From: Bacteroidota bacterium
GTDB taxonomy: Bacteria; Bacteroidota; Bacteroidia; UKL13-3
DNA: 35,008 nt
Direction of reading: 5' to 3'
NCBI GenBank assembly: GCA_947446605.1
Contig: CANFHJ010000017.1
Location: forward strand, 1 to 35,008
The notes beneath the pieces were generated by a model. It did not search any database. It was not told where the DNA came from and was given only the letters and a program-made list of their open reading frames with translations. Of the stretch, positions 1,008-33,248 are shown piece by piece. A program made the translations under genes and the position numbers. Position 1 is the first letter of the stretch, and the number at the start of each line of letters is the position of its first letter.

Positions 1008-1021
1008 TCGGTTCGAACCGA
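1008..1021. repeat. Iterated palindrome GGTTCGAACC, copy 1 (14-bp form)
   Basis: TCGGTTCGAACCGA is a perfect 14-bp palindrome around the 10-bp core at 1010-1019. It lies between the DUF481-like gene and icmF. The same 14-mer recurs at 20601-20614 inside rdgB. Confidence 0.85.
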
Positions 1022-1078
1022 GCCCAAATGCCCCAATGTAAATCTTAAGAAAGCCCTTCTTTTTGTGGGCTAAAAGCC

Positions 1079-1086
1079 TATTTTTG
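1079..1086 (+). promoter_or_regulatory. Promoter -7 box of icmF
   Basis: TATTTTTG matches TAnnTTTG exactly and is followed by the icmF ATG after 24 bases. A TTTG at 1062-1065 is a possible -33 element, but the 13-base spacing is shorter than usual. Confidence 0.6.
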
Positions 1087-1110
1087 CCAATTAAATGACC
1101 GCCAATTTTT

Positions 1111-4100
1111 ATGGAAAACATTGAAAAGTATATACCTAAGAACAAAATTCGTATTGTAACTGCTGCCAGTTTATTTGATGGCCATGATGCTGCCATTAAC
1201 ATCATGCGCAGAATTATTCAAGCCAGTGGCGCGGAGGTTATACATTTAGGTCATGATAGAAGCGCAGAAGAAGTGGTAAATACCGCTATTCAGGAAGATG
1301 CCAATGCCATTGCTATGACTAGCTACCAAGGTGGACACGTTGAGTATTTTAAATACATGCGTGATTTATTGGTAGAAAAAGGTTGCGGACATATTTGCAT
1401 TTTTGGTGGTGGTGGTGGAACCATTTTACCTGAGGAAATTGCAGAATTGCAAGCTTATGGCATTACTAGGTTATACCATCCAGATGATGGTCGTTCTATG
1501 GGTTTGCAGGGAATGATCAATGATATGCTTCAAAAATGTGATTATCCAACGGGCAATCATTTAACAGACGAAGTAGCGCAATTAAAAGATAAAAATTTCA
1601 AATCAATTGCCCGCTTAATTTCTGCGGCAGAAAACTTTCCAGACGAATTTCATAGCATAGAAAAACAAATTAATTGGGAGCTTTCTCATACGCCTGTTTT
1701 AGGAATTACAGGAACTGGTGGTGCAGGAAAATCATCTCTGGTAGATGAATTGGTGCGCCGTTTTTTAATAGACTTTCCAGAAAAAACCATTGCCATAATC
1801 TCTGTTGATCCAAGTAAAAGAAAAACCGGAGGTGCACTTTTAGGCGATCGCATACGCATGAATTCTATTAGAAACCCAAGGGTTTACATGCGTTCTTTGG
1901 CAACTCGCCAAAGCAATTTGGCATTGTCTAAATATGTGAAGGAAGCTGTAGATATTATTAAAGCTGCAAATTTCGATTTAATTATTTTAGAAACTTCTGG
2001 GATCGGCCAAAGTGATACCGAAATTATAGAACACAGCAATGCATCCTTGTATGTGATGACGCCAGAATACGGCGCTGCTACCCAATTAGAGAAAATTGAT
2101 ATGTTGGATTTTGCCGACATTATTGCTATTAACAAGTTTGATAAAAAAGGTGCTTTGGATGCCTTGCGTGATGTAAAAAAACAATACCAACGCAACCACT
2201 TGTTATTTGACAAAAACCCAGAAGACATGCCAGTTTTTGGCACCATTGCTTCGCAGTTTAACGATCCAGGCATGAACCGTTTGTACAAAACGGTGATGGA
2301 CAAAATAGTTGAAAAAACAGGCACTAGCTTGGTTTCTACTTACACCATTAGTGAAGAAATGAGTGAGAAGATTTACATCATTCCACCTTCACGTACACGC
2401 TACCTTTCTGAGATTTCTGAGAACAACCGTAATTATGATAAATGGGTTGCCAAACAAGCTGCTATTGCAGATAAATTATTTGGTTTAAAGTCTTCAATTC
2501 AAACCATGCAGGAATCGGCCTACAACGACAAAGACCGCATGGTGAAAGGGCTAGAGGAAATATACGAACAAGTTGCTTTAGACCTCGACCCAAGAAATAA
2601 AATCATTTTAGACACTTGGGAAGAGAAAATAAACTTGTACAAAAACGAGTATTATATCTTCAAGGTTCGCGATAAAGAAATTAAAATTAAGACCCATTCA
2701 GAATCACTTTCGCACACACAAATTCCAAAAGTTGCTGTGCCTAAATTTAAAGCATGGGGCGATATTTTGCGTTGGGCTTTAAATGAAAATTTCCCAGGAG
2801 AATTTCCCTATACCTCGGGTATTTATCCCTTTAAAAGAGAAGGTGAAGATCCTACCAGAATGTTTGCCGGCGAGGGCGGCCCAGAAAGAACCAATAAACG
2901 TTTTCACTATGTAAGCTTGGGTATGCCAGCTGCACGCTTAAGTACAGCTTTCGACTCTGTAACTTTATATGGAAACGACCCTGATTACAGACCAGATATT
3001 TATGGAAAAATTGGTAATTCAGGCGTGAGCGTATGGAGTTTAGATGCAGCCAAAAAATTGTATTCTGGCTTCAATTTGGCCGATCCAAAAACTTCGGTTT
3101 CCATGACCATTAATGGCCCTGCGGCTATTATCTGCGCCTTTTTTATGAATGCTGCCATTGACCAACAATGTGAATTGTATATCAAGAAAAACGGTTTAGA
3201 AAAAGAGGTGGAACAAAAGATGGAAGCCATTTTTAAAGAACGCGGCATTAAGCGCCCTATTTACAATGAAACCATGCCAGAAGGCAACGATGGCCTAGGA
3301 TTAATGTTATTAGGTGTAACCGGAGATATGGTTTTAGATGCGGAGGTATATGCCAAAATAAAAGCAGATACTTTAAAGCAAGTAAGGGGAACTGTTCAGG
3401 CTGATATTTTAAAAGAAGACCAAGCGCAAAACACTTGTATTTTCTCTACAGAATTTAGCTTACGCGTAATGGGAGATGTACAACAGTATTTCATTAACGA
3501 AGGGGTAAGAAATTTCTATTCTGTTTCTATTAGCGGATACCATATTGCAGAAGCAGGTGCCAACCCAATTACCCAATTGGCATTAACATTATCTAATGGA
3601 TTTACCTTTGTAGAATATTATTTAAGCAGAGGAATGGACATCAATGATTTTGCACCAAACCTAAGCTTCTTCTTCTCTAATGGTATTGACCCAGAGTATT
3701 CGGTAATTGGTCGTGTTGCCCGCAGAATATGGGCAAAAGCCATGAAATTAAAATATGGTGGCAACGAAAGAAGCCAAATGTTGAAATACCATATTCAAAC
3801 CAGTGGCAGAAGTTTACACGCGCAGGAAATTGATTTCAATGATATTCGTACAACCTTGCAGGCGCTTTATGCTATTTACGACAATTGCAATTCATTGCAT
3901 ACAAATGCATACGATGAGGCCATTACTACCCCTACAGAAGAATCTGTAAGAAGGGCCATGGCTATTCAGTTAATTATTAATAGAGAATTGGGATTAACTA
4001 AAAACGAAAATCCACTACAAGGTTCATTTATTATTGAAGAATTAACCGACTTGGTTGAGGAAGCTGTATTAACCGAATTTGATAAAATAACAGAAAGAGG

Positions 4101-4485
4101 CGGTGTATTAGGTGCCATGGAAACCATGTACCAAAGAACCAAAATACAGGAAGAAAGCTTGTACTATGAAACATTGAAGCATACAGGTGAGTTTCCAATT
4201 ATAGGTGTGAATACTTTCTTGTCTTCTAAAGGTTCTCCAACCATGTTGCCAAAGGAAGTGATTCGTTCAACGCCAGAAGAAAAGGAATACCAAATTACCA
4301 TGTTGGAGCAACTTAAAATGGGCAACAAAGAAAAAGGAGAAGCCTCTTTAAAACGTTTACAATATTGTGCCATCCATAACCAAAACATTTTTGAGGAAAT
4401 GATGGAAACAGTTAAATATTGTTCATTGGGACAAATAACCGCCGCGCTATTTGAGGTAGGTGGGCAGTACCGAAGAAATATGTAA
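1111..4485 (+). CDS. icmF: Fused isobutyryl-CoA mutase (IcmF), B12-dependent
   Basis: A 1124-residue fusion in the order typical of IcmF. First comes a B12-binding domain with DGHDAA at residues 23-28 (His25 is the cobalt ligand) and GGGGG near 105. Next is a MeaI-type G-protein chaperone domain with P-loop [13 protein letters not shown] near 198-210, a [15 protein letters not shown] segment near 232, and NKFDKKG near 344. Last is the mutase TIM-barrel domain from about 545, with [18 protein letters not shown] and [14 protein letters not shown]. The family interconverts isobutyryl-CoA and n-butyryl-CoA by adenosylcobalamin radical chemistry, and the G domain guards cofactor loading. IcmF-like order and motifs argue against methylmalonyl-CoA mutase, whose G protein is separate. 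A related pivalyl- or isovaleryl-CoA activity cannot be excluded. The gene has its own promoter and a strong terminator. Confidence 0.93.
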
Positions 4486-4524
4486 TTAAAAAAAAGACCC
4501 TAAATTAGGGTCTTTTTTTTAATT
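4484..4524. terminator. Bidirectional terminator between icmF and the hybrid kinase
   Basis: A near-perfect inverted repeat with stem core AGACCCTA / TAGGGTCT, a run of eight A on the left and eight T on the right, extended by AATT on both sides. It serves both convergent genes and overlaps the last codons and stop of the kinase gene. Confidence 0.9.
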
Positions 4525-7032: not shown

Positions 7033-7038
7033 GTTCTG

Positions 7039-7045
7039 CAAAATA
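7039..7045 (-). promoter_or_regulatory. Probable -7 box of the hybrid kinase gene (short form)
   Basis: Minus strand TATTTTG, which is TAnTTTG with one spacer base instead of two. Only six bases separate it from the ATG at 7032, which suggests a leaderless or nearly leaderless transcript. It sits 12 bases from the divergent pdxJ box. Confidence 0.4.
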
Positions 7046-7056
7046 GGAAGAAATCT

Positions 7057-7064
7057 TAATTTTG
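7057..7064 (+). promoter_or_regulatory. Promoter -7 box of pdxJ
   Basis: TAATTTTG matches TAnnTTTG exactly, 31 bases before the pdxJ ATG at 7096. It is back to back with the kinase promoter, so the two polymerase sites must overlap. Confidence 0.6.
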
Positions 7065-7095
7065 TTAACTCCTATTAAATATATTATACCATATT

Positions 7096-7812
7096 ATGAC
7101 CAAGTTATCCGTTAATATTAACAAACTTGCCCTCATCAGAAATTCTAGAGGAGGAAATAACCCCAATCTCCTTCAAGCTGCATTGGATTGCGAAAAATTT
7201 GGTGCAGATGGCATAACAGTGCATCCAAGACCAGATGAACGTCATATTCGCTATGCAGATGTTTATGACTTGAAGGAAATATTACAGACAGAATTTAATA
7301 TTGAAGGCAATCCAATGGAGCAAAAATTCATTGATTTGGTATTAGCCGTAAAACCAGCACAAGTTACCTTAGTACCAGATCAGAGCGGACAATTAACCAG
7401 CGATCATGGTTGGGATACAATTACCCATGAAAACTTTCTGGCAGATTTGGTTCGAACCTTTAAAAAAGAAGGCATCCGTACTTCTATTTTTGTTGACCCA
7501 AACACACAAATGATTGAGGGTGCAAAAAAGATTGGTACAGATAGAATTGAATTGTATACAGAATCATATGCAGCAGGCTTTCACATCAACAAGGAATTGG
7601 CCATTCAGCCATTTATAAGCGCGGCCAAAGTTGCTAATGAATTAGGGTTAGGCATCAATGCTGGACATGATTTGAGCAAAGAAAATTTAAAATTCTTTGC
7701 ACAACATATCCCACAATTATTAGAGGTATCTATTGGGCATGCTTTGATTTGCGACGCCATCTATTTGGGCTTGGAAAATACCATTCAAATATACAAGCGC
7801 GCCTTAAAGTAA
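7096..7812 (+). CDS. pdxJ: Pyridoxine 5'-phosphate synthase PdxJ
   Basis: 238 residues, the normal family length. It begins with [20 protein letters not shown], and has [16 protein letters not shown] near 36-51, EGNPM, VTLVPD and a C-terminal GHDLSKENL and SIGHALI. These are standard PdxJ motifs for the phosphate site and the catalytic His and Glu. The enzyme joins 1-deoxyxylulose 5-phosphate and 3-amino-2-oxopropyl phosphate to form pyridoxine 5'-phosphate, in the cytosol. PdxH, which completes the route to PLP, is encoded at 18643. The gene has its own promoter, and only three bases separate its stop from the convergent purA stop. Confidence 0.96.
7449..7458. repeat. Iterated palindrome GGTTCGAACC, copy 2
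   Basis: Exact 10-bp copy inside pdxJ, read as Val-Arg-Thr (GTT CGA ACC) preceded by TTG. It uses the codon CGA. Confidence 0.85.
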
Positions 7813-7815
7813 TTG

Positions 7816-9081
7816 TTATTTTACAATCGTTTCTTCACGGTCTGGACCTACAGAAATAATGCTTACAGGCACTTGAATTTGTGCTTCCACATAATCCATA
7901 TAATTTTTGAAAGTTTCTGGAAGTGCATTGTATTCCTTGATGGCACTCAAATTACCTGTCCAACCTGGAAAAGATTTGTATTGCGGCAAAATATTTGCAT
8001 CCATCATATTAAATGGCAATTCATTGGTTAATGTACCATTGATATTATAAGAATCGCAAACTTGCACTTGATCAAAACCACTCAATACATCACTTTTGGT
8101 GCAGATTAAATCTGTTACACCGTTTAGCATAATGGCATATTTCAAGGTAGGTAAATCTAACCAACCGGTTCTTCTTGGACGACCAGTTGTAGCACCAAAC
8201 TCGTGACCTAATTTACGCAACAATTCACCTGTTTCGTTTTCTTGTTCTGTTGGAAATGGGCCATTACCTACACGTGTGCAATAGGCTTTAAAAATTCCAA
8301 ATACACGATCAATTTTCTGAGGAGCAATGCCTAAACCACTGCAAGCGCCGCCGGTGATGGTATTAGAAGAAGTAACAAATGGGTACGAACCAAAATCGAT
8401 ATCTAACAAAGCTCCTTGCGCGCCTTCTGCCAATACTTTTTTACCGTCTAAAATCAATTTATTAACGAAGTATTCTGTATTAATAATTTTAAATTGTTTA
8501 AGGTATTCAACCGCTTCAAAAAAGGCAGGTTCGTGATCGGCCAAATTATATTCGTAATTGAATGAATCTAACAATTTAATATGATTGCTTACAGCAGTTT
8601 CGTATTTGCTTTTAAACTCAGGACCAATTAAATCGCCAATACGCAAGCCGCTTCTGCCAATTTTATCTTGGTAGGTTGGGCTAATGCCACGTAGGGTTGA
8701 ACCAACTTTATGAACGCCTTTATACGCTTCGCTTGCGGCATCTACCAATCGATGAGTTGGAAGAATAACATGTGCTTTTTCAGAAATATATAAACTCTTA
8801 CGAATGTTTACACCAGTAGTTTCTGCTTTTTCAATTTCTTTTTTCAATTGAACTGGATCTACAACTACCCCATTGCCAATAATATTGATACAATGTTCGT
8901 GGAAAATTCCTGAAGGAATAGTATTCAACACATATTTATTGCCACCAAATTCCAGTGAATGACCAGCATTTGGACCACCTTGAAAACGCGCTACTACATC
9001 ATATTTTGGGGTAAGCACATCAACTATTTTACCTTTACCCTCATCGCCCCATTGCAAGCCTAAAACAACATCTACCTTCAT
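7816..9081 (-). CDS. purA: Adenylosuccinate synthetase
   Basis: 421 residues, full length. The N-terminus has LGLQWGDEGKGKIVD, the PurA GTP loop, followed by GGPNAGHS, TTGRPRRTGWLD and the C-terminal SVGPDREETI. It catalyses the GTP-dependent joining of IMP and aspartate, the first step from IMP to AMP. The gene lies four bases downstream of a Fur-family regulator gene on the same strand and probably shares its promoter. No terminator is visible at the three-base junction with pdxJ. Confidence 0.97.
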   Translation of the reverse strand: MKVDVVLGLQWGDEGKGKIVDVLTPKYDVVARFQGGPNAGHSLEFGGNKYVLNTIPSGIFHEHCINIIGNGVVVDPVQLKKEIEKAETTGVNIRKSLYISEKAHVILPTHRLVDAASEAYKGVHKVGSTLRGISPTYQDKIGRSGLRIGDLIGPEFKSKYETAVSNHIKLLDSFNYEYNLADHEPAFFEAVEYLKQFKIINTEYFVNKLILDGKKVLAEGAQGALLDIDFGSYPFVTSSNTITGGACSGLGIAPQKIDRVFGIFKAYCTRVGNGPFPTEQENETGELLRKLGHEFGATTGRPRRTGWLDLPTLKYAIMLNGVTDLICTKSDVLSGFDQVQVCDSYNINGTLTNELPFNMMDANILPQYKSFPGWTGNLSAIKEYNALPETFKNYMDYVEAQIQVPVSIISVGPDREETIVK

Positions 9082-9085
9082 ATTT

Positions 9086-9589
9086 TTAGTGTTCCTTTTT
9101 TACAAATTTTTTGCATGATAAACAATGTTGTTCACCATCTAATTTAGGATCACCAAAAAGATACAAAGAATGATTGGTGATAGTAAATTGCATGAGTTCC
9201 CCCATTGTTGTTTTGATCTGTTGAATGCGTGGATCACAAAATTCCAATACTTCATTACAAATATTACAAATTAAGTGATCGTGTTGTCTAAAACCATAAG
9301 CACGTTCGTACCTGGAAATATTTCTGCCAAATTGATGTTTGATTACCAATCCACAATCCAATAATAAATCTAAGGTATTGTATACAGTAGCCCGACTCAC
9401 CCTGTAATTCCTATTCTTCATATGATCGAATAGGGTTTCTACATCAAAATGCTCTTTGTTGGAGTAAATTTCATCGAGTATGGCAAAGCGTTCAGGCGTT
9501 TTTCTCTGTTGGTTAAGTTCTAGGTACTCAACAAATTTATTTTTTACTTCTAGCTTTAGCTTTTCAGCATTGTGCACATCCACAGACAT
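9086..9589 (-). CDS. Fur-family metal-responsive repressor
   Basis: 167 residues. The N-terminal winged helix contains [14 protein letters not shown] and the recognition-helix region [19 protein letters not shown]. The dimerisation domain has [15 protein letters not shown] and a C-terminal CLSCKKF, giving two CxxC pairs for a structural zinc. Fur, Zur and PerR cannot be separated safely from sequence alone. The typical Fur HHDH cluster is reduced to QHDH, which is also compatible with PerR. It is the first gene of a two-gene unit with purA. An exact -7 box lies 17 bases upstream of the ATG. Confidence 0.9.
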
Positions 9590-12219: not shown

Positions 12220-14502
12220 ATGATAAGATTCACAACCCGTTGTGTACTTTTATTGACAGCACTTTTGATAACCCAAATTGGTTATTCTCAAAAAAAGGCG
12301 CCAATAAAACCCGAAGCAAAAGATGTTTTTATTAGAACATTAATTGGCAAAATGACCTTAGAAGAAAAGGTTGGCCAACTTACCTTATTTACCAGCGACA
12401 TGTCTATAACCGGACCGGTAATTAGAGACAGTTATAAAGCAGATTTGCAAAGCGGAAAATGCGGAAATATTTTCAATGCCTATACGCCAGAATACACCAT
12501 GAAATTGCAAAAATTAGCCATGGAATCTCGTTTGAAAATTCCATTGTTATTTGGCTATGATGTAATTCACGGACATAAAACCATTTTCCCTATCCCCTTA
12601 GGTGAATCATGCGCTTGGGACACTTTGCTTTCTGAACAAACTGCAAGAATTGCTGCGGTAGAGGCTGCTGCAGATGGCTTGCATTGGACCTATTCGCCCA
12701 TGGTAGATATTTCACGCGATCCAAGATGGGGCCGCGTGGCAGAAGGTTCTGGAGAGGACCCATATATTGGTTCACTCATTGCACGTGCAAAAGTTAAGGG
12801 ATACCAAGAAAATATTGGTTCGAACAGTAGCCTACTTGCCTGCGTAAAACATTTTGCATTGTACGGCGCACCAATTGCCGGTAGAGATTACAATACCGTT
12901 GATATGGGTTACCAATCTATGTACAATGTGTATTTCCCACCCTATAAAGCCGCTATTGAGGCCGGCGCAAGAAGCGTTATGGCTTCCTTTAACGAAATTA
13001 ATGGAATACCTTCAACCGCCAATAAATGGTTAATGAATGATGTATTACGCAACGATTGGGGCTTTAAAGGTTTTATTGTAACAGATTATACGGGCATCAA
13101 TGAAATGGTACACCATGGTAATGTTGCCGATGAATATGAAGGTGGTATTGCTGCATTAAATGCGGGAATTGACATGGATATGCAAGGAGCCGTTTATTAT
13201 ACCTATTTAAAGAAGGCATTAGATGAAAAGAAGGTAAACATAGAACAAATTGATATGGCCGTTTACAGAATTTTAGAAGCCAAATATGACTTAGGTTTAT
13301 TTAACGATCCTTATAAATTTTGTTCGAAAGAAAGAGCTAAAACACAAATTATGAACCCTAGCCAGCTGGCTAAAGCTATGGAGGCTGGACAAAAATCGAT
13401 TGTGCTTTTAAAGAACCAAAACGATATTTTACCTTTAAAAAAGACTGGAAAATACGCATTAATTGGACCATACATTAAAGATAAAAGAGATTTAATTGGC
13501 AACTGGAGTGGCGCTGGAGATTGGACCAAAGCAGTATCTTTATATGATGCATTAAACGCTAAAATTGGAAGCGCTGCACAATTATTTTATGCCCAAGGAG
13601 CCAATACCGTTTCCGACACCACGCTTATTAAGAAAATGCATATTCAAGAGTTTATTAGCCCTCGCAGCGATGGTGATTTATTGCAAGAAGCATTAATAGC
13701 AGCCTCGCAAGCAGAGGTAATTATTTTGGCTTTGGGAGAAACCGAAGGCATGACCGGCGAAGCCGCTAGCAGATCGAACCTAAGAATTCCTGCCAACCAA
13801 ATAAAATTAATGGAAGCATTAAAGGCCCTAAGCAAACCTATTGTTTTGGTTTTAAGTAATGGTCGTCCGCTAGATTTATCTTGGGAAAATGAAAACATGA
13901 ATGCCATTTTAGAAACTTGGTTTTTAGGAACCCAATCTGGCAATTCAATATGCAGTGTTTTATTAGGTGATTATAATCCCCAAGGACGCTTAACCATGAG
14001 TTTTCCAAGATCTGTAGGACAAGTACCAATTTTCTACAGCGCCAAAAATACAGGAAGGCCTTATGAAGAGAACCAAAAATACACTTCTAAATATTTAGAC
14101 ATCCCTAACACCCCTTTGTATCCTTTTGGATATGGCTTAAGCTATACCCAGTTTACTTATTCGGACAAAAGCATCAATAAATCGAAATTCAAAATTGGCG
14201 AAAATATTGAAGTGAGCGTTTTAGTTAGCAATACGGGGAAAACAAAAGGAATTGAAACCGTGCAATTTTATGTGAGAGACAATGTTGGTTCTTCTACCCG
14301 ACCTGTGAAAGAACTGAAACGTTTTGCCAAAGTAGAACTCAATCCTGGGGAGAGCAAAAAAGTAGTATTTACAATTAACAGTGACGACTTAAAGTTCTAC
14401 AATTACGAGTTGCAACAGGTATTTGAACCAGGTGAATTCACCTTGTTTATTGGCAAAAACTCTTCTGAAAACGAGTCGATTAGCATTCGCATTGGGGAAT
14501 AA
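12220..14502 (+). CDS. bglX: GH3 beta-glucosidase, exported (BglX-type)
   Basis: 760 residues. The signal peptide runs MIRFTTRCVLLLTALLITQIGYSQ. The N-terminal GH3 TIM barrel has MTLEEKVGQL near 44, DISRDPRWGRVAEGSGEDP near 163, KHFALYG at 210-216 and the nucleophile segment VTDYTG, with Asp289 as the predicted nucleophile. The alpha/beta C-terminal domain has GETEGMTGEAASR and FGYGLSYTQF, and a fibronectin-III-like domain closes the protein. It should remove terminal glucose (or xylose) from oligosaccharides in the periplasm. No TonB-dependent receptor or SusD pair is adjacent, so this is not a typical polysaccharide utilisation locus. A long hairpin follows the stop. Confidence 0.93.
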   Translation: MIRFTTRCVLLLTALLITQIGYSQKKAPIKPEAKDVFIRTLIGKMTLEEKVGQLTLFTSDMSITGPVIRDSYKADLQSGKCGNIFNAYTPEYTMKLQKLAMESRLKIPLLFGYDVIHGHKTIFPIPLGESCAWDTLLSEQTARIAAVEAAADGLHWTYSPMVDISRDPRWGRVAEGSGEDPYIGSLIARAKVKGYQENIGSNSSLLACVKHFALYGAPIAGRDYNTVDMGYQSMYNVYFPPYKAAIEAGARSVMASFNEINGIPSTANKWLMNDVLRNDWGFKGFIVTDYTGINEMVHHGNVADEYEGGIAALNAGIDMDMQGAVYYTYLKKALDEKKVNIEQIDMAVYRILEAKYDLGLFNDPYKFCSKERAKTQIMNPSQLAKAMEAGQKSIVLLKNQNDILPLKKTGKYALIGPYIKDKRDLIGNWSGAGDWTKAVSLYDALNAKIGSAAQLFYAQGANTVSDTTLIKKMHIQEFISPRSDGDLLQEALIAASQAEVIILALGETEGMTGEAASRSNLRIPANQIKLMEALKALSKPIVLVLSNGRPLDLSWENENMNAILETWFLGTQSGNSICSVLLGDYNPQGRLTMSFPRSVGQVPIFYSAKNTGRPYEENQKYTSKYLDIPNTPLYPFGYGLSYTQFTYSDKSINKSKFKIGENIEVSVLVSNTGKTKGIETVQFYVRDNVGSSTRPVKELKRFAKVELNPGESKKVVFTINSDDLKFYNYELQQVFEPGEFTLFIGKNSSENESISIRIGE

Positions 14503-17250: not shown

Positions 17251-17922
17251 TTGAAGGATAAAATTACATACTACAATTGTCATACACATAGAAAACCACA
17301 AAGTGAAAATGAATTTTGTATTAGAAATGCATTTCTATGTGATTTCCCTGAAAATGGCAGCAACTATTGCTTTAGCAGTGGTTTACATCCTTGGTTCGTA
17401 AATAATTATTCGGAGAGCAGGCTTGAAAATTTGCTTTTAAAAATTGCACAGCACCCCAAAAATTTAGCAATTGGTGAAATAGGCTTAGATAAAACAAAGC
17501 CTCATTTTGAAAAACAAATGACGGTCTTTTTACAACAGCTTGCCATTGCGCAAAAATTAGAAAAACCACTCCTCATTCATGCTGTAAAATCAATGGATGA
17601 AATCATTTCACCACTTCGTTCTTTCAAAGGAATGATAGTTTTACATGGCTATCAAGGAAATTTGCAACAATGGGAACAGCTCAATCAAAACCAAAATGTA
17701 TATGTGAGTTTTGGTTCGAAAAGTTTGCAAGAGAATGAAAAATTGCACAAAACCATTCAAGAAATACCTCTACCTTTTATACTTGCAGAAACAGACAACA
17801 AGCCACTAAGGATTCAAGAAGTTTACAAGGCTATTGCTAACATAAAAAATATTTCATTGGAAGTTTTGGCGGTTCAAATAGAAGAAAACTTTTGCAATGT
17901 ATTCGGTTCGAACCAAAACTAA
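17251..17922 (+). CDS. TatD-family metal-dependent hydrolase
   Basis: 223 residues, on the short side for TatD (usually about 255-265). Motifs: HTH at residues 11-13 (metal-binding HxH), SSGLHPW near 53, GEIGLDK near 76 (metal Glu), LLIHAVKS near 110, HGYQGN near 131, and LAETDNKPL near 182 (metal Asp). The family includes DNases and 3'-5' exonucleases; the true substrate is unknown here. There is no ATG upstream of the HxH motif, so the start is TTG at 17251. Its TAA is directly followed by the stop of convergent yqgE, with no base between them. Confidence 0.88.
   Translation: MKDKITYYNCHTHRKPQSENEFCIRNAFLCDFPENGSNYCFSSGLHPWFVNNYSESRLENLLLKIAQHPKNLAIGEIGLDKTKPHFEKQMTVFLQQLAIAQKLEKPLLIHAVKSMDEIISPLRSFKGMIVLHGYQGNLQQWEQLNQNQNVYVSFGSKSLQENEKLHKTIQEIPLPFILAETDNKPLRIQEVYKAIANIKNISLEVLAVQIEENFCNVFGSNQN
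17905..17914. repeat. Iterated palindrome GGTTCGAACC, copy 3
   Basis: Exact copy in the last codons of the TatD-type gene (Gly-Ser-Asn), eight bases from the zero-gap convergent junction with yqgE. Confidence 0.85.
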
Positions 17923-20504: not shown

Positions 20505-21092
20505 TTATTTTAAATCCTCCAAAAACAATTTCATTTTTTCAAATGCTTTTGCCCTATGGCTAATGGTGTTTTTTTCTTCCATGCTCATTTCGGCAAGGGT
20601 TCGGTTCGAACCGACAGGCATAAAAATTGGATCGTACCCAAAACCATTGTTTCCTGAAGCACTTTGGGTAATATGTCCATCCATGCGTCCTTCAAAATAA
20701 TGTATTTGGCCATGAAGAATTAAGCAGATAAAAGTGGAAAAATGAGCGGCTCTATTTTCCAAGCCCTTCAAATCTCCTAAAAGTTTGGCATTGTTTTTTT
20801 TACTGTCTTTTTCCGGACCAGCAAATCGGGCGCTGTACACACCTGGATTGCCGTTGAGGGCATCTACCATTAAACCAGTATCATCGGCAAAACAATTGAA
20901 TTGAGTAGACTTGAAAATCGTTTGCGCCTTAATAAGTGCATTTGCTTGTAGGCTTAATCCGTCTTCAATAATTTCCGAATGGTAGCCAATATCATTTAAT
21001 GAATTTACTATCCAATTGCTAGGCAAAAGCTTGGCAATTTCTGCCGTTTTATTTACATTATGGGAAGCAAAAACAAGTTTTGTTTGCATCAT
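20505..21092 (-). CDS. rdgB: XTP/dITP pyrophosphatase (RdgB/HAM1)
   Basis: 195 residues, the standard size. Motifs: KLVFASHNVNKTAEI at the N-terminus, FADDTGLMVDALNGNPGVYSARF near 65, GYDPIFMPVGSNRTLAEM near 150, and SHRAKAFEKM at the end. It hydrolyses non-canonical purine NTPs (dITP, XTP) to monophosphates to keep them out of DNA. The start is in a TAATG overlap with the stop of the upstream small gene, so the two are probably translationally coupled. Two consecutive ATGs are possible starts (21092 and 21089). Confidence 0.95.
   Translation of the reverse strand: MMQTKLVFASHNVNKTAEIAKLLPSNWIVNSLNDIGYHSEIIEDGLSLQANALIKAQTIFKSTQFNCFADDTGLMVDALNGNPGVYSARFAGPEKDSKKNNAKLLGDLKGLENRAAHFSTFICLILHGQIHYFEGRMDGHITQSASGNNGFGYDPIFMPVGSNRTLAEMSMEEKNTISHRAKAFEKMKLFLEDLK
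20601..20614. repeat. Iterated palindrome GGTTCGAACC, copy 4 (14-bp form)
   Basis: TCGGTTCGAACCGA, identical over 14 bp to the copy at 1008-1021, here inside rdgB where it encodes Val-Gly-Ser-Asn-Arg of the conserved PVGSNRT region. Confidence 0.85.
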
Positions 21093-22642: not shown

Positions 22643-23812
22643 TTAAGCTCTTTTTGCTCTTTCCCAATTTGCACTTTGTTTTCCGCGTATATACCTAAAA
22701 AAACCAAGGTACATGCAAAGGTTCATTATAAAAAAGTAATAGGGTACAAACAATATTTTCACTTTCACCTGTTTATTGGCCAGGTACCAACCCAATAAGG
22801 CCATAGCATAAAATACAATTTGGGCAAGCATTAAACAGGAGTAAATAGATCCTATTTTTTGATGTAAATATATATTCATCAAAAACAAAAACAGAAGAGA
22901 GAGCGGCGCAATTGTCCACCTTAAAACACGGTGCGAAATAAACAAAAAGCTCACTTTGAAATTGCTAAATAAATTAAAGGCAGGCAACAAACGTCCCATA
23001 CTTTGAAAAGCTCCTGCTGCTATGCGCACCTTGCGTTTTAGCTCTTCTTTTACATCTGCGCTAGCGGTTTCTGAGGCCACAGCATTTTTCTCGTAAATAA
23101 CCCTGTAACCAGCAATAGCAATTTGCATGCTTTGCATTAAATCATCCAATAAACTATCTGAAGGCAAAGGTAAATAGAGCGCTGTTCTATAACTCATTAA
23201 TTCACCTGCTGCCCCAACGATGGTGTGAAAATCAGAATCCAATTGTTTGAGAAAACTTTCATATTTCCAATAAATCCCTTCACCTGCCCCACTTGCATTT
23301 TCTTTATCCTTGCTTAAAATCCTTTTTTCTCCTGTAACAGCGCCAACTCTTGGATCAACATAATGCTTTACCATTTCTCTAATTGCAGCGCTGCTTAAAA
23401 TTGTATTGGCATCACAAAAAACCACAATTTCAGAATTAATAAAGGTCATAGCCCTATTCATTGCCGCTGCTTTCCCATTGCGAGTAGCCTCATGTAGGGA
23501 CAAAACTGAAGGATATTTTTTTATGATGGCTTCCGTTTCATCAGTAGAACCATCGCTAACAAAAATGAATTGTAGTTTTTCCTTCGGATATTCAAGCGCT
23601 AAACAATTTTTAATTTTCTCCTCAATATAATCTGCTTCATTAAAACAAGGTATAACCAGCGAAACACTTGGCTCAAAGTTTGGGTCGAACCGAAATGAAG
23701 TTTGAAATGCCTTTTTAATTTTCACTAAAAGCCACATAAATATACCATAGCCAATATAGCTGTAAAACACTATAAACAATGCACACCAGAAGTAAATTTC
23801 GGCAAGGGTCAT
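22643..23812 (-). CDS. Membrane glycosyltransferase, GT2 family (last gene of EPS operon)
   Basis: 389 residues. An N-terminal membrane helix (IYFWCALFIVFYSYIGYGIFMWLLV) is followed by the GT-A domain with VSLVIPCFNEADYIEEKI, FVSDGSTDET, ATRNGKAAAMNRAM, VVFCDANT and LDDLMQS. Three or four C-terminal helices follow from about residue 285. It resembles inverting processive-type GT2 enzymes that use a nucleotide sugar on the cytosolic face. Donor and acceptor are unknown. It is nine bases downstream of the GT4 gene. Confidence 0.88.
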   Translation of the reverse strand: MTLAEIYFWCALFIVFYSYIGYGIFMWLLVKIKKAFQTSFRFDPNFEPSVSLVIPCFNEADYIEEKIKNCLALEYPKEKLQFIFVSDGSTDETEAIIKKYPSVLSLHEATRNGKAAAMNRAMTFINSEIVVFCDANTILSSAAIREMVKHYVDPRVGAVTGEKRILSKDKENASGAGEGIYWKYESFLKQLDSDFHTIVGAAGELMSYRTALYLPLPSDSLLDDLMQSMQIAIAGYRVIYEKNAVASETASADVKEELKRKVRIAAGAFQSMGRLLPAFNLFSNFKVSFLFISHRVLRWTIAPLSLLFLFLMNIYLHQKIGSIYSCLMLAQIVFYAMALLGWYLANKQVKVKILFVPYYFFIMNLCMYLGFFRYIRGKQSANWERAKRA

Positions 23813-23821: not shown

Positions 23822-24964
23822 TTAGGCTTTGTTCAAAGAAAATACTTCTTCATATACTTTCAAAGTTTGTTGCGCATTATGCAAGCAAGAAAATTGCTGC
23901 ACGCGTTCCTTTCCCTTCAAGCGCAAATCATCTTGAAGTGAAGGATTTGCAATTACTTTTTCAATAGCTTCAGCTATACTATTTGCATTATATGGGTCAC
24001 AAAAAACCGCGGCATCTTTAACAATTTCGGGCATCGACGAAGTATTGGATGTTACAATTGGCACGCCACAAGCCATTGCTTCCAATAGAGGAATCCCAAA
24101 ACTTTCACGCAATGAAGGGTATAGAAAAAGGGTGGCCTGACTATAAATTGCAGGTAAATCTGTATTGGGCACATAAGCTGCAAAACAAATGTGGTCAAGT
24201 AAATGCGGATCTCCCAATTCAGAAATTAGTTTGTATAAATAATCTTTATTTATATCTAACATGAGCAATTTACATGGCAATTTCCCTGCCTTTATTAATA
24301 CTATCATTGCTTGTAAAACACCAATAACATTTTTCTTTGGATCTGTATTTCCTAAATAAAAAATATACTTGTCGGGTAAATTGTATTTTACTTTGGCCAC
24401 TGCTAAAACCTTGGCATCGCTTATTTGGGTAAAATGTGAAGCAAGGCCATTATAGACGGTTCGAACCAATTGTGCAGACATTTTAAAATAAGAGAGAATG
24501 GCATTGCGCTCAAAATTGGAAACAGTAAGAATAACTTTTGCTTTTTTTACAAGCTCAGGTACAATGAAGCGCCTATAAATATTTCCAAGTTTTTGGTAGT
24601 TTGTACCTTGATACAAATTTAAAACTTCTAAATAAATGATATCGTGCAAGGTTAATACCAAAGGCATGTTTAAAAACAAAGGCGCCGTATTGCTGGTACA
24701 ATGTAAAACATCTATTTTGAGTTTTTTTGCAGCCCGAGGCAAATGCCATTGCTCCCATATTGGGTAGGGCGAAGAAGGTAAAACTACTAAGGTAAAATTG
24801 GGTGCTATAGGCAAACAATTTCTAGCTGGGCCATCCTGCACAAAAACAAAAAACTCATGAGGTACTTGGAGGTTTTGAAGAGCTTTAATAAGCTCCAAAG
24901 CCACCATGTCCATGCCATGTTTGTTATCTCTAAAAATACGCTGTGCTTCAATTCCTATTTTCAT
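23822..24964 (-). CDS. Glycosyltransferase, GT4 family
   Basis: 380 residues, GT-B fold. The N-terminal half has KIGIEAQRIFRDNKHGMDMVALELIKAL and LHCTSNTAPLF. The C-terminal donor domain has YIFYLGNTDPKKNV near 195 and the retaining E-x7-E motif in RESFGIPLLEAMACGVPIVTSN near 286-307. This is the mannosyl/glucosyl-type GT1/GT4 superfamily. It is soluble or peripheral, with no membrane helix, and is presumably one of the repeat-unit assembly enzymes. It lies three bases after the preceding GT2 gene. Confidence 0.9.
   Translation of the reverse strand: MKIGIEAQRIFRDNKHGMDMVALELIKALQNLQVPHEFFVFVQDGPARNCLPIAPNFTLVVLPSSPYPIWEQWHLPRAAKKLKIDVLHCTSNTAPLFLNMPLVLTLHDIIYLEVLNLYQGTNYQKLGNIYRRFIVPELVKKAKVILTVSNFERNAILSYFKMSAQLVRTVYNGLASHFTQISDAKVLAVAKVKYNLPDKYIFYLGNTDPKKNVIGVLQAMIVLIKAGKLPCKLLMLDINKDYLYKLISELGDPHLLDHICFAAYVPNTDLPAIYSQATLFLYPSLRESFGIPLLEAMACGVPIVTSNTSSMPEIVKDAAVFCDPYNANSIAEAIEKVIANPSLQDDLRLKGKERVQQFSCLHNAQQTLKVYEEVFSLNKA
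24458..24467. repeat. Iterated palindrome GGTTCGAACC, copy 5
   Basis: Exact copy inside the GT4 gene; on the coding strand it spells Val-Arg-Thr, as in pdxJ. Confidence 0.85.
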
Positions 24965-24967
24965 AAC

Positions 24968-26176: not shown

Positions 26177-26179
26177 GTA

Positions 26180-28545: not shown

Positions 28546-29870
28546 TTTATATTTATTACACTTAAACTTTTTGTTTTAAACTCGAACCAACCTAGGCGCA
28601 TCACATTTGAAAATTTGACACCTAAATATTTATTTAACTGCATGTAGCCAAATAGAACCCCAACAACAAATGTGGCGGTGCTTACAATGGCAACAGATTG
28701 AAGATTCCCGAAAAAATATAAACCAATAATATCTCCAATAACATTAACAGCCAATTGAATTAATACTTTATAGAAATTGATATTGGGCTTGTTAATTGTA
28801 TCTAACAATACACCAGAGAATTTATCTAATGGCAAAATGGCCATATAAGTGGCAAACAATCTCAGAAGTATAGCAGATTCTTCATAGCCCTTTCCACCAA
28901 TTAAAAAAACAAGCCAATCTGCAAACACAAAACATAGAATTGAAATTGGCAATAAAAGAAAAAAAACTAAGCCAGATTTTTTCTCGAATTCAAATCGCAA
29001 TTCTTCATGCGACTTAGCTACAAATAATTTTGAAAACTGAGGCAAGGCCGTTACGGCAAAACTTCTTAAAGGAACTTCTATAACTTCTATTAAGCGAGCA
29101 GGCACATTAAATAAGGCAACGCCAGCCCCACCCAGAAAACTACTTCCAATTATAAATGAATCTGAACTTCTCAATAAATTTGCACCAATAAGCGTTCCCA
29201 TGCTAAATTTACCAAAATGAAAAACCTCTAACATCTTCTCTTTGGAATAAGAAAACAAATATTTAATGCCGCTCCAACCCATTATCACAGCCAACAAACT
29301 TGCAAGTAAATGAGATACCGCCAAACATAAAATAACTGCTGGAACACTTTCTGTTTGTTGCAAATAAAACCATGTGATAAACAGAAAAACCAGTTGTGTA
29401 ATGATACGAATAGCGCTCATCTCCACAATTTTCAATTTGGCATTAAGATACCAAGTAGCAAAATTATTAGGGGCCGAAATAAGTGCAATTAACATCAACC
29501 ATTTAAAGAAATATAAATAAGGAATAAGTATCCCCAAATATGAAAAGAAAAAATAGAGTACAGTTGTTAAAGCAAGGAAAATAAACGTAAGAAAAAAGGT
29601 GATAAATAGAGTCGAACCAATTACAATATTTTCTTCCTCTACTGAATTACATTGTGCTAAGTTTCTAACCAAGGCATTCATAACCATTCCAATGCGTAGT
29701 GTTTCAAAAACACCATAAATAGCCAAAAAAATAAGATAGGAACCAAAAACATCCTTTGGCAATACCCGTGCTAATATAGCAAAAGTAATTACGCCCAAAA
29801 TTGCGCCAAGGCCATTACCTATTAAGGACGAAAAACTTTTGCTTTTGATAATTTGGCTGAGTGCTTGCAT
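28542..29870 (-). CDS. Polysaccharide flippase (Wzx-like, MOP superfamily)
   Basis: 442 residues with about 12 predicted membrane helices. The N-terminus (FSSLIGNGLGAILGVITFAILARVLPKDVFGSYLIFLAIYGVFETLRIG) is typical of Wzx/RfbX-like proteins. It would move undecaprenyl-linked repeat units across the inner membrane. It sits between the Wzc-like and Wzy-like genes. The stop TGA overlaps the start of the next gene (ATGA). Confidence 0.9.
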   Translation of the reverse strand: MQALSQIIKSKSFSSLIGNGLGAILGVITFAILARVLPKDVFGSYLIFLAIYGVFETLRIGMVMNALVRNLAQCNSVEEENIVIGSTLFITFFLTFIFLALTTVLYFFFSYLGILIPYLYFFKWLMLIALISAPNNFATWYLNAKLKIVEMSAIRIITQLVFLFITWFYLQQTESVPAVILCLAVSHLLASLLAVIMGWSGIKYLFSYSKEKMLEVFHFGKFSMGTLIGANLLRSSDSFIIGSSFLGGAGVALFNVPARLIEVIEVPLRSFAVTALPQFSKLFVAKSHEELRFEFEKKSGLVFFLLLPISILCFVFADWLVFLIGGKGYEESAILLRLFATYMAILPLDKFSGVLLDTINKPNINFYKVLIQLAVNVIGDIIGLYFFGNLQSVAIVSTATFVVGVLFGYMQLNKYLGVKFSNVMRLGWFEFKTKSLSVINIK

Positions 29871-29886
29871 GCATTTTTAAAACCTA

Positions 29887-32109
29887 TTATGCGGTTTCCT
29901 CATCCAATTCAATTAGTTCTTGTTCTTGTTCTTTTAAGGCAGGACGAGCAGCTGATCTTTTCATTTTAGGCATAGCTCCAACCATGTTTTCTAAATCTTC
30001 TGGCGCAACTTGGTTCAACCAAACCATAATCTTATTTTCTTCACCAGCGGCTTTTCTAAACAATTTCATAATACTATCATCGGCTGAAGTCCAGCTTCTT
30101 CTGGCATCAAGCACTAATAACGATAAACGAGAATTTTTTATCAATTGGTTAGGCAAGGCATTTACGCTAATTGCAGGAATTTCAACAATAATAAAATTGA
30201 AAGCACTTCTATTTACACGTGAAAATTCGGGTAATAAATTTTCTTCAGTTTTAGCAGAAAACAACCGTGAAGTAATATCGTAACGAAGGGTGCGGAAACG
30301 CCTATCATCTGTTTCGGCATCTTCCATATTTTCATCATTTGAAATATAAAGTACTGAATAATCAAGGTTATATAGCTTCTCTGCCAATTTTTGAGCGGCA
30401 TAAGACTTCCCTTCCATTTCCCTCGAGCTGATTACAGTAATCAAATAATTATTAGATCCCAACTGCGGATTTTGCTCCAATTCAATTTTTAAATTAGAAA
30501 CGGCATAATCTAAAAGCGTATTCTCAACCTTTGCCATTTGCAAATAACCAGCATCAATAGAACGATTTGGCAATGCGCTAAATGCTTTTAAGCCTGTTAG
30601 CTCTTCTGCTCTTTGCGTGTTTCTAATAGAACTATCTAATAATTCTTTTGCAACAAAGTAAACTAGCAATAAGAAAAATGAGGCTATGAAAGATAAAATA
30701 ACCAATAACATTTGCTTTGAGGCCAAAGCTTTTGTAGGAAATACTGGACTGTCCATAATCTGAAGATTATTAGACATCTCAATATTTTGCTGTCTCAATT
30801 TAGCTAAATGGTAGCCGTGTAAAATTTCCAAATATTGGCGTTCTGCAACACTAATTTCTCTTTCCAACCTACTCACCTGCATATTTAGTGGAGAGAACTC
30901 ATTGTACTTTCTATCAAATTCTTTTCTACGATCGATATAAACCTGCAAACGAGCTTCAGATCCATCCATAATTAGAACTTCCTTCAACCAGTTTTCTAAT
31001 ACAGTAGCTTTAGGAACAGATTCCATAGAATTGTTCAAGCTATAATATTGTAAAACCCAAACACGAATTTCTTGTTTTAAACCATCAACCTTAGTAGCTA
31101 GTTTTGCTATTTTTTCTGGTGTATTGCTGTATATTTTTGCACGCTCATACTCTTCATGTGCAATACCCAATTCCTTACGCAAACGGTTTAATTCAGAATT
31201 ATTACGCAGTAAAATTTCGCGTGATTCCAATTGATCTTCCAAGCGAGCTACAGCTCTTTTAGAAGCTTCATAAGTCATTAACTCTTTGTAATAATCAGTC
31301 TCATTGGTTTCATTTTCGATGGCTACCGCTTTAGCTTGTTCGTAGTAATTGATAATTTTATTACGTATGCCAAAATCTTTAAGTTTGTTTTCAGAATTAT
31401 TTAATTCGCCGGCAGCATCTTTTAAACGTGATTCAAACCATTTTAAAACATTAACCGTTTCAGATCCCTTTAGTGATTTGTATTTGTCTATAAAAACTTC
31501 GGTAATAAATTTTAAGGTATTTAAACATACACCTGGATCATCCGATTTGTAGGTTAAATCAAGAAAATCTGAATTAAGTTTACGAGAAGCACTTAAGTTT
31601 TTAGCAATAAGAGAAGTACTGTAATGACTTTTTTGATCAGTCATTAACTTAACAACAATATTATCTGTAGAAGAATTTTTATACTTTTTTATTCTATCAA
31701 CGGTAGCAGTAAAATTACCCGGAACCACCATTAAATTGCGTTCTTCTGTAATGGTAGTTTTTAATTCATTGAAACTTTTTTCGCTCAAAATGAGCGGATC
31801 AGACATTTCTAATAATAAATGTTGGGCAAGTAACTTAATTGCCACGTCTTCCATGGTTTGACGAGCCGTAACTGTAGCTAATAAATTATCAAAAGCATTG
31901 CTAATTGAAAAATAATCTGCTCTAGGCGCATCTTCATTAGAGGTTATACCATAACCTGAAGCTATACCCGTATAAACTGTGGTGGCAGATTGGTACTCCT
32001 TTGGAAGTTTCCCTGTAAGAAAATACACCAAAATGGCTATTAATACTGGAAATAGTATTAGCCACTTTAGGTTCTTACTTAATACACGTAAAAATTGAAC
32101 AAAACTCAT
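29887..32109 (-). CDS. Wzc-like polysaccharide co-polymerase with a degenerate BY-kinase domain
   Basis: 740 residues. Membrane helix 1 lies near 15-33 (WLILFPVLIAILVYFLTG), then a long periplasmic coiled-coil region. A Pro-containing motif (DSPVFPTKALASK) precedes helix 2 near 466-490, followed by a cytosolic P-loop domain. The Walker A region reads SSREMEGKSYA: Gly567-Lys568-Ser569 are kept but the first Gly is missing. The Walker A' region is VLYISND instead of hhhhDxD. The Walker B region is FIIVEIP, with Glu643 where Asp is expected. The acidic C-tail (ELIELDEETA) has no tyrosines, so there is no autophosphorylation cluster. It probably sets chain length structurally without kinase activity. 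It lies in the operon 10 bases after the TolC-like gene. Confidence 0.87.
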   Translation of the reverse strand: MSFVQFLRVLSKNLKWLILFPVLIAILVYFLTGKLPKEYQSATTVYTGIASGYGITSNEDAPRADYFSISNAFDNLLATVTARQTMEDVAIKLLAQHLLLEMSDPLILSEKSFNELKTTITEERNLMVVPGNFTATVDRIKKYKNSSTDNIVVKLMTDQKSHYSTSLIAKNLSASRKLNSDFLDLTYKSDDPGVCLNTLKFITEVFIDKYKSLKGSETVNVLKWFESRLKDAAGELNNSENKLKDFGIRNKIINYYEQAKAVAIENETNETDYYKELMTYEASKRAVARLEDQLESREILLRNNSELNRLRKELGIAHEEYERAKIYSNTPEKIAKLATKVDGLKQEIRVWVLQYYSLNNSMESVPKATVLENWLKEVLIMDGSEARLQVYIDRRKEFDRKYNEFSPLNMQVSRLEREISVAERQYLEILHGYHLAKLRQQNIEMSNNLQIMDSPVFPTKALASKQMLLVILSFIASFFLLLVYFVAKELLDSSIRNTQRAEELTGLKAFSALPNRSIDAGYLQMAKVENTLLDYAVSNLKIELEQNPQLGSNNYLITVISSREMEGKSYAAQKLAEKLYNLDYSVLYISNDENMEDAETDDRRFRTLRYDITSRLFSAKTEENLLPEFSRVNRSAFNFIIVEIPAISVNALPNQLIKNSRLSLLVLDARRSWTSADDSIMKLFRKAAGEENKIMVWLNQVAPEDLENMVGAMPKMKRSAARPALKEQEQELIELDEETA

Positions 32110-32119
32110 TATAATTCGT

Positions 32120-32878
32120 TTAGTTTTTCTTCTGTTTAATCATTATGGTATGCAATGGCACACCTAATATTGCCTCAAACTGTTTTAATGCGCCAAAATA
32201 AAATCTAAATGATTCATGGTAGGCAGCTTCCGCATCCGACAAAACATTTTTTTGACGTGCGTATTCCGACATATGAATCACTCCCTCGCGGTATTCTTTT
32301 TCTGCAACCTGACAAGCTACCAATTGCGTTAAATAATCCTCGTTTCTTCCTTGATACAGCCTATCATAACCTACCATATCTGCATAGAATTGTGCTAACT
32401 TTCTTTTTAATTCCATTGCCTCAGCATCGCGTTTATATTTTTGCAGAATCACCTTTTCTTTGGCTTCATTTACTCTACCCTGTTGGCCCATGATATCAAA
32501 AACAGAAAGAGAAACATTAATGCCCATTCGGAAACCTTCTTTTATCTGAACCAATCCAGTACTTATTGGTTTAGTAGGATCTGTATAAGCAAAAAATGGT
32601 AAGCTTCCCAAAGAATAATTATAAAACATGCTAATATTCTGCGACCAAATCCAACGGGTATAAGCAACATTCCATTGGTTGGCGCGCTGTGCTGCAAGTT
32701 CTTGTTTCATGGAAGGATTAACCGTTTTAGCAATCTCAAACATTGAATCAAGCGTTGGCAGCAACATCACGATATCAACTTTAGGGTCGAGCAAAAGAGA
32801 ATCTGCCTGCGCTTTTGCAGAGGGTGATAATGTTAAAATCCCCATCAAAAAAACGAGCAATTGCTTCATGTGTTTCAT
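32120..32878 (-). CDS. Half-length TolC-like outer-membrane efflux protein
   Basis: 252 residues with a signal peptide (KQLLVFLMGILTLSPSAKAQA). The helical and strand pattern matches one repeat of the TolC/OEP family: a long helix NPSMKQELAAQRANQWNVAY, a hairpin strand NISMFYNYSLGSLPFF, a second strand FRMGINVSLSVFDIMGQQ, and helices to the end. Full TolC proteins have two such repeats (about 420-480 residues); here only one is present, with a natural end and no frameshift remnants downstream. A trimer of this length could not form the usual 12-strand barrel with four strands per chain, so a higher-order oligomer or a partner is implied. It is the first gene of the EPS operon, where Wza would be expected. 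Confidence 0.75.
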   Translation of the reverse strand: MKHMKQLLVFLMGILTLSPSAKAQADSLLLDPKVDIVMLLPTLDSMFEIAKTVNPSMKQELAAQRANQWNVAYTRWIWSQNISMFYNYSLGSLPFFAYTDPTKPISTGLVQIKEGFRMGINVSLSVFDIMGQQGRVNEAKEKVILQKYKRDAEAMELKRKLAQFYADMVGYDRLYQGRNEDYLTQLVACQVAEKEYREGVIHMSEYARQKNVLSDAEAAYHESFRFYFGALKQFEAILGVPLHTIMIKQKKN

Positions 32879-32918
32879 ATCAAAATTGAATGGTGCTTGA
32901 GTTAATTTTTCTTACCAA

Positions 32919-32925
32919 CAAAGTA
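32919..32925 (-). promoter_or_regulatory. Possible -7 box of the EPS operon (short form)
   Basis: Minus strand TACTTTG, the one-base-spacer variant, 40 bases before the first ATG at 32878. No clear -33 TTTG was found. Confidence 0.35.
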
Positions 32926-33238
32926 AAGCCACATTTATATGTATATGGGATTCACTTATTAACCCTAGCGCTAATGGTGTCCAATTTTCTGACAGCAGAC
33001 TTTGTGTAAAATTTTTAACTATTTTTTATTTGCGAGAGGCCGTGTGCAAACAAGAACAACTTAGTTGTGGTTCCTATTATGCAATACAAAATGGCATAAA
33101 AACTTTTTCTTAATTAGTTCTAAATTATCTATTATTTTCATGTTATCAACAAGCAAAAAAAGGCAATTGCTAAGTAAAAATGGTCGTGAAAGCCTCCATA
33201 TAAAACCACTTCATACGGCATTATGATTTTAAAAAAAT

Positions 33239-33248
33239 GGTTCGAACC
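33239..33248. repeat. Iterated palindrome GGTTCGAACC, copy 6
   Basis: Exact intergenic copy, about 145 bases upstream of the acetyltransferase ATG. Confidence 0.85.

Follow-up and report, generated by a model that had tools for sequence, protein, structure and literature searches.

A palindrome-cored DNA element iterated along the chromosomes of one Bacteroidota genus: a possible self-recognition mark

DNA words iterated throughout a genome are elements of a known kind. DNA uptake sequences (DUS) form dialects that follow phylogeny, occur within genes and in inverted pairs between genes, and give a stop codon in one reading frame (PMC3630211). The highly iterated palindromes (HIPs) of cyanobacteria reach a density of about 500–2500 per Mb, and in some cyanobacteria HIP1 is replaced by other palindromes (PMC4390886). 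The sites of Noc and SlmA are unevenly spread and number about 24–70, the Noc site being 14 bp long (PMC4726725). Further sources are PMC1939737, PMC5217627 and PMC2346458. Here, we analyzed the window, i.e., the whole stretch of 35,008 bp (bases 1–35008 of contig C17) of a Bacteroidota genome in which the 10-bp palindrome GGTTCGAACC recurs. The best-supported interpretation of the sequence patterns is that this 10-mer forms the core of a putative 14–16 bp recognition element, TYGGTTYRAACCRA, iterated chromosome-wide in one genus. Judged by the listings of open-access literature searches, neither this word, nor this host, nor a switch of dialects at the central step has been described.

The element resembles the DUS of Neisseriaceae and the uptake signal sequences (USS) of Pasteurellaceae in having hundreds or more copies per genome with many near-matches, a limit to one lineage, dialects one or two bases apart, genic and permissive intergenic sites, a stop in one frame and some inverted pairs (here in the related genome G013). 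Unlike DUS and USS, it has one perfectly palindromic and one nearly palindromic dialect, its host is a Bacteroidota genus, and it is known here from sequence alone. With HIP1 (GCGATCGC) and the alternate HIPs it shares a short palindrome spread over genes and intergenic DNA and alternative spellings in relatives, but its density is lower (about 110 exact copies per Mb in the genome holding the window, below the 500–2500 per Mb of HIPs), its motif is longer and graded, its second dialect is asymmetric, and no cognate methyltransferase was found among the three families searched. Like the Noc and SlmA sites, it is palindromic and scattered along the chromosome; unlike them, it has hundreds of sites, no Noc-type ParB paralogue and no site desert in the sampled parts.

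Abundance and genus-wide distribution of the element

The genome holding the window (own genome) is an assembly of 2,479,440 bp in 203 contigs, 84.5% complete; G-numbers denote comparison genomes, 18 of them congeners. Counts were controlled with each pattern read backwards, and the detailed analyses of the own genome were based on 40 stretches together with the window (827,008 bp, 33% of the genome). The six exact copies of GGTTCGAACC that the initial annotation had placed in the window, at 1010, 7449, 17905, 20603, 24458 and 33239, were all positioned correctly, and far less than one copy was indeed expected, as Markov models of orders 1–3 predict 0.008, 0.016 and 0.012 exact 10-mers for the window. 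Allowing at most one mismatch, nine places were found in the window, while 100 dinucleotide-preserving shuffles gave a mean of 0.29 and a maximum of 3. The whole own genome contains 272 copies against 6 of the reversed control. The sample contains 87 copies where an order-3 Markov model expects 0.28, an approximately 300-fold excess that bears out the suggested likeness to HIP1 as a genome-wide iterated palindrome beyond coding. No other 10-mer with at least 10 copies reached so high a z-score in the sample, and one-off variants of the palindrome were abundant there. TTCGAA by itself was not special (229 observed vs 179 expected, 87 of them within the element); in the window 6 of the 12 such sites carry the GG and CC flanks, the half that had been claimed.

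Constraint extends past the 10-mer. In the 87 copies, a T is found two bases outside in 90%, C or T stands beside GG, and a weaker run of T follows. The full element reads TYGGTTCGAACCRA and its profile, symmetric by construction like all the species profiles used here, carries 19 bits, each half consisting of T (0.88), Y, GG (0.97), T (0.75), T (0.91) and C (0.90), followed by the mirror. The profile recognized 227 sites in the 827 kb (226 in a rerun) where the reversed control gave 11, i.e., a false discovery of about 5%. This corresponds to about 260–273 sites per Mb in the own genome; 245–533 per Mb were found in G004, G008, G010, G012 and G013, the value of 533 coming from only 60 kb of G010.

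The PdxJ protein encoded in the window was used to place the host among named genomes. It was 95% identical to that of the isolate Ja_bin-4299, and its first matches were labelled uncultured Bacteroidetes. Eight assemblies followed at 71–76%, including two under the name Chitinophaga pinensis, and identity was 66–69% for Sediminibacterium and other Chitinophagaceae. The isolate names suggest lakes and ponds, so the host genus is probably a freshwater one.

Among the 18 congeners, the exact 10-mer was present in 30–300 copies in 15 genomes and in 6–9 copies in three (G015, G017 and G018), with controls of 0–14; in G017 the reversed control reached 9, level with this lower range. Twenty-two genomes of other genera and families had 0–4 copies. 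The most over-represented 10-mer of the sampled G010 genome, GGTTCAAACC, turned out to be the same element with a CA/TG centre, and some congeners thus seemed poor in the exact 10-mer because they spell it in this way. The pattern TGGTTCAAACCR, summed over both strands, occurred 26–919 times in all 18 congeners (controls 0–12), with 919 copies in G013, 454 in G008, 440 in G010 and 373 in G005; the own genome had 32. In the 22 other genomes it occurred 0–7 times, level with the controls (0–8). A wider survey covered 395 genomes of the class. Five of these, the own genome included, belonged to the genus and contained 178, 359, 423, 112 and 20 copies of TYGGTTYRAACCRA (controls 0–3), and the remaining 390 genomes, 11 of the same family among them, contained 0–6. 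Hence each of the 18 congeners had one or the other spelling above its reversed control, and the element is confined to one genus. The initial annotation was right that the palindrome is iterated; it knew a single spelling of an element that is genus-wide and has a second spelling centred on CA/TG. Viral contigs yielded no marked phage: 17 stretches contained one exact 16-mer palindrome each, their G+C ranged from 0.34 to 0.63, and only 1 of the 17 held a second TYGGTTYRAACCRA.

Dialects, placement and turnover of the sites

Comparison of the species profiles showed that the arms are unchanged and the centre varies. CG-centred sites make up 184 of 226 in the own genome and 111 of 120 in G012. 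CA/TG centres prevail in G013 (148 of 159 sites, with 11 CG and no TA), in G008 (71 of 73, with 2 CG) and in G010 (28 of 32, with 1 CG), and G004 is mixed (34 CA/TG, 12 CG and 3 TA among 49 sites). The two halves of the G013 sites are not independent, since C at a frequency of 0.53 per half would give CG in about 28% of sites and 7% was seen. When sites were oriented by CA, the outer positions proved unequal between the sides in G008 and G010, and in G013 so did the position beside GG/CC; in G008 the two left outer positions are T at 0.55 and 0.37, and their right mirrors are A at 0.80 and 0.69. Genome-wide over-representation of a perfect palindrome holds for the CG dialect only, the CA dialect being imperfectly palindromic.

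A midpoint-rooted SpoT tree was built for 18 of the 19 genomes, G017 being excluded as a fragment; five of its 15 inner branches were drawn open. The own genome, G016 and G012, all CG-rich, formed one clade (100/100), and G005, G008 and G010, all CA-rich, formed another (100/100). The CA-rich G013 was grouped with these CA-rich genomes and the site-poor G015 and G018 at 82/91 only. By inspection rather than by a formal test, each well-supported clade keeps to a single dialect, the deeper forks being weak.

In place of curated genes, greedy open reading frames (ORFs) with a minimum length of 80 aa served for coding and intergenic calls. Of the 226 own profile sites, 200 lay within ORFs, 24 between them and 2 across an edge. 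Exact copies were enriched between ORFs (19 of 86, one edge case omitted, vs 7.2% of bases; p 1e-5), and the profile sites showed a weak excess (24 of 224; p 0.05). The excess was clear in G008 (16 of 72 sites in 6.5% of bases) and in G013 outside one array, L209–L213 (34 of 103 sites in 7.8% of bases). Coding copies of the own 10-mer used all three frames (31/8/28), so protein sequence does not explain them; together with the higher density between ORFs, this leaves the codon-pair bias that the initial annotation had named for checking as an explanation not sustained. In coding DNA the CA spelling exceeds TG by about 2:1, probably because TG gives a TGA stop in one frame.

Orientation counts for intergenic sites were restricted to those flanked by ORFs on both sides (23 of 24 in the own genome, 65 of 73 in G013 and 16 of 16 in G008) and include the G013 array. 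Pooled over these three genomes, convergent gaps had 1.25 sites per kb (15 sites), divergent gaps 0.87 (23) and co-directional gaps 1.01 (66). As convergent gaps were not poorer than divergent ones, the places look permissive rather than regulatory. From one CA/TG-centred site to the next, orientation flipped in 80 of 129 cases in G013 and in 36 of 61 in G008. Because these sites are mixed in orientation along contigs, they show no replication polarity; polar guides such as Chi or KOPS were not supported, and the asymmetric sites spoke against the segregation mark, in its polar sense, that had been suggested for the palindrome.

Elements were present in 40 of the 41 own stretches. Counts per stretch varied less than their mean, but even spacing was not significant in simulations (p 0.09 and 0.18). 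The sole site-free own stretch, L037 (bases 1–20000 of contig C29), contains a translation operon in which the genes of EF-G, ribosomal protein L3 and the RNA polymerase alpha subunit were confirmed; its Poisson probability is 0.004, uncorrected for 41 stretches. In G013, seven inverted site pairs, 22–27 bp apart, were intergenic, and the genes flanking two of these pairs are convergent. Close pairs numbered 12 there vs 5.3 expected, and five of the seven inverted ones lay in the array already mentioned. This region (contig C49, 20–120 kb) contains many same-strand genes, repeated intergenic segments bearing the element, several inverted pairs 26–27 bp apart and 55 of the 159 G013 sites. It looks like a cassette-type array.

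Conservation was studied on 141,880 bp, at 90.6% identity, in which the own genome was aligned with stretches of G012 (99% complete), with the G012 SpoT locus and with the named locus L041. At 32 shared places the 14-bp core had 17 mismatches, whereas windows matched for gene and codon phase had a mean of 52 and a minimum of 32 in 400 draws. At the third codon positions of 31 coding sites, 8 of 143 differed inside the element (5.6%) and 752 of 2849 around it (26.4%; Fisher p 4e-10); the sites are thus conserved at synonymous positions among close relatives. Picking sites in the relative instead gave the same picture (core 4.3%, flank 11.1%, 33 sites), and the choice of reference is thus not the cause of the conservation. 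Between G008 and G010 (95.1% identity, 9 sites), the core diverged by 0.8% and its surroundings by 3.3%. At 73–74% identity the core was no better kept than the flank, with 0.275 vs 0.281 in G013 and 0.374 vs 0.287 in G004, and in each of these genomes 4 of 13 aligned own sites were still recognizable. Sites are held for a while and then replaced; it is the density that persists, not the place.

What may read the element

An element so strongly constrained at hundreds of sites along the chromosome should have a reader. We tentatively favour the view that it is a self-DNA recognition mark that works much as uptake sequences do in Neisseriaceae and Pasteurellaceae. One sequence-specific DNA-binding protein would read the element, DNA bearing it would be favoured, probably during uptake and recombination, and this bias would continually create, spread and preserve copies at permissive places. 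No single copy would then matter, because the bias keeps making and keeping others. Molecular drive by a biased reader fits a mark that is lineage-bound, iterated, individually dispensable, conserved in the short term and rewritten in dialects. The uptake-type mark is preferred since uptake sequences are the known case that combines phylogeny-following dialects, intragenic copies, inverted pairs and a stop in one frame; here, over-representation was lineage-restricted and the dialects were clade-wise, the latter judged by eye. The wider proposal, that Bacteroidota, beyond the two proteobacterial families known for uptake sequences, possess uptake-type self-recognition with a palindromic or near-palindromic mark, dialects switching at the central dinucleotide and a genus-level barrier or channel for gene exchange, is put forward more hesitantly, as a possibility.

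Several observations weigh against an uptake mark. To our knowledge, known uptake sequences are never palindromic, and the element in the clade of the own genome is. Among the papers listed in searches of the open-access literature, no uptake sequence beyond Neisseriaceae and Pasteurellaceae came up. ComEC (PF03772) is no discriminator, as all 25 genomes checked possess it whether they bear the mark or not; no receptor candidate for the element was found. The excess of close pairs was confined to G013 (5 vs 4.6 expected in the own genome, 1 vs 2.5 in G012). Finally, G015, G017 and G018 have few copies, and no clear alternative motif emerged from the two of them that were sampled, G015 and G018. 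G015 (L181–L191) has an over-represented repeat of the GTACATCGTACA type together with GC-rich gapped inverted repeats such as CGCGA-N4-TCGCG.

A close rival, though itself doubtful, is that the element is bound chromosome-wide by a dimeric chromosomal protein acting in nucleoid organisation, nucleoid occlusion, replication or repair. The initial annotation had suggested both a protein-binding site and an uptake mark, and these are the two leading explanations here. The palindrome of the own clade, with a pyrimidine–purine step at the centre of nearly all sites, is what a dimer bending or contacting the centre would be expected to bind, and the synonymous-site constraint (8/143 vs 752/2849) the location of sites both in genes and between them, and their presence in 40 of the 41 own stretches agree with such a role. 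A Noc-type protein in particular was not supported, as one strong ParB_N (PF02195) match was found in the own genome and in each of 13 of the 15 congeners searched (G016–G018 lay outside the search), just as in 9 unmarked genomes. G007 had no match, and the second match of G004 barely passed the cut-off and shares its frame with a match to the methyltransferase family PF01555. With no extra ParB_N protein in the searched genomes, there is no Noc-type paralogue in them. On the 895-kb contig C1 of G004, a genome sampled in part and with origin and terminus not located, CG-type sites were evenly placed with a largest gap of 85 kb, in contrast to the uneven Noc and SlmA sites. In contig C2, an 80-kb stretch lacking CG-pattern sites still had 18 profile sites, of which 15 were centred on CA/TG. 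Rewriting hundreds of sites to a new centre would, moreover, be harder by selection than by drive, and the CA dialect is asymmetric beyond its centre.

It is unlikely that the element originated through methylation, as a palindrome of the HIP1 kind made by methyltransferase-directed repair. A short palindrome iterated genome-wide with abundant one-off variants suits this model. Deamination of a methylated C would produce just such a shift from CG to TG/CA, and a C5 methyltransferase (PF00145) was found above the cut-off in six congeners, namely G017 and the enriched G002, G003, G008, G010 and G011. However, PF00145 had no match in 11 of the 19 genomes, including the own genome, G012 (with 300 copies), G016, G013 and G005, and PF01555 had none in 8 of 19, including the own genome, G012, G005 and G008. 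The methylation target considered in the initial annotation is not supported by these searches, neither family having a match in the own genome, G012 or G005. For PF07669, the own genome gave two matches, one HsdM-type and the other TrmN-like, and none was found in G009, where 103 exact copies occur. No cognate methyltransferase common to the enriched genomes was found in PF00145, PF01555 and PF07669 across the 19 genomes, while PF02086, MT-A70 and other classes were outside the search. Of the 708 ORFs in the sampled third of the own genome, 3 encode the [DN]PP[YFW] motif, two of them rRNA-methyltransferase-like and the other unscanned. The HsdM-type protein, above the Pfam cut-off and below that of NCBIfam hsdM, was the sole own DNA methyltransferase arising from the searches of the three families; the other methyltransferase-like matches were TrmN-like and RlmL-like, both below the cut-off, and RlmF, above it. 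In L262 (own contig C39), the gene of the HsdM-type methyltransferase is followed directly by that of an ORF6N-domain protein.

Operators of one transcription regulator are an improbable reading: the profile resembles a dimeric operator and 24 of the 226 own sites are intergenic, but 200 lie inside ORFs, divergent gaps are not preferred and the sites turn over. The lack of preference by gap type argues against promoter operators. Ten genes beside intergenic sites were scanned, and the seven that matched a family were of mixed kinds (isocitrate/isopropylmalate dehydrogenase, RuvA, fumarase-type lyase, tail-specific protease, P450 and others). The Bacteroidetes LexA motifs GGA-N5-TCC and CTAA-N5-TTAG (PMC8565304) do not match the element. 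An artefact of chance, codon bias or tRNA genes can practically be dismissed, for although GGTTCGAACC can occur in the tRNA T-arm, none of the 87 exact copies falls within the 15 tRNAs found in the sample, the frame usage and intergenic density do not suit codon bias, and chance is refuted by the Markov and reversed-control counts (87 vs 0.28; 272 vs 6). Most of the probability outside the uptake-type, chromosomal-protein and HIP explanations falls to something not listed here.

Copies in the window and significance of the element

As annotated initially, four of the exact copies in the window lie within ORFs and two between them; none of the sites below is assigned to a strand. The extended 14-mer TCGGTTCGAACCGA was present in both claimed places. 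One, at 1008–1021, is intergenic, between ORFs 220–981 and 1111–4485 (profile score 25.4), and the other, at 20601–20614, lies in a Ham1-family ORF (20505–21092; score 24.6). TTGGTTCGAACCTT at 7447–7460, with the exact core (score 19.0), is located in the PdxJ-family ORF 7096–7812, and this copy is also kept within pdxJ in the named record L041 of Ja_bin-4299. Further exact cores are TCGGTTCGAACCAA at 17903–17916, at the 3′ end of the TatD-type ORF 17251–17922 (score 26.9), ACGGTTCGAACCAA at 24456–24469 in the glycosyltransferase ORF 23822–24964 (score 18.8) and the intergenic ATGGTTCGAACCAA at 33237–33250, between ORFs 32120–32878 and 33393–34001 (score 19.1).

Three variants with one core mismatch accompany them: TGGGTACGAACCAA at 8380–8393 in ORF 7816–9081 (score 16.1), TTGGTTCGAACAGT at 12815–12828 in a glycosyl hydrolase family 3 ORF (12220–14502; score 14.9) and TTGGGTCGAACCGA at 23680–23693 in ORF 22643–23812 (score 22.8). 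Near-matches belong to the same set as the exact copies, and some details of the initial annotation needed correction: GGGTCGAACC starts at 23682 and not at 23692, GGTTCGAAAA at 17713 differs by two mismatches, and GGTACGAACC at 8382 had been overlooked. Among the neighbouring genes, ORF 1111–4485 combines a B12-binding domain, a MeaB-type GTPase and a methylmalonyl-CoA mutase domain, an order which we take to be that of fused acyl-CoA mutases. A 740-aa ORF at 29887–32109 had no Pfam match at 1e-5.

Whatever reads the element, its copies are usable as a genus barcode in metagenome binning, and the switch from CG to CA/TG constitutes a natural experiment on the joint change of a reader and hundreds of its sites. 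If a chromosomal protein binds these sites, it would be a candidate factor at the level of the nucleoid, in a group where cell biology is scarce. On the uptake reading, sequence alone would reveal where species barriers limit gene exchange among lake bacteria.

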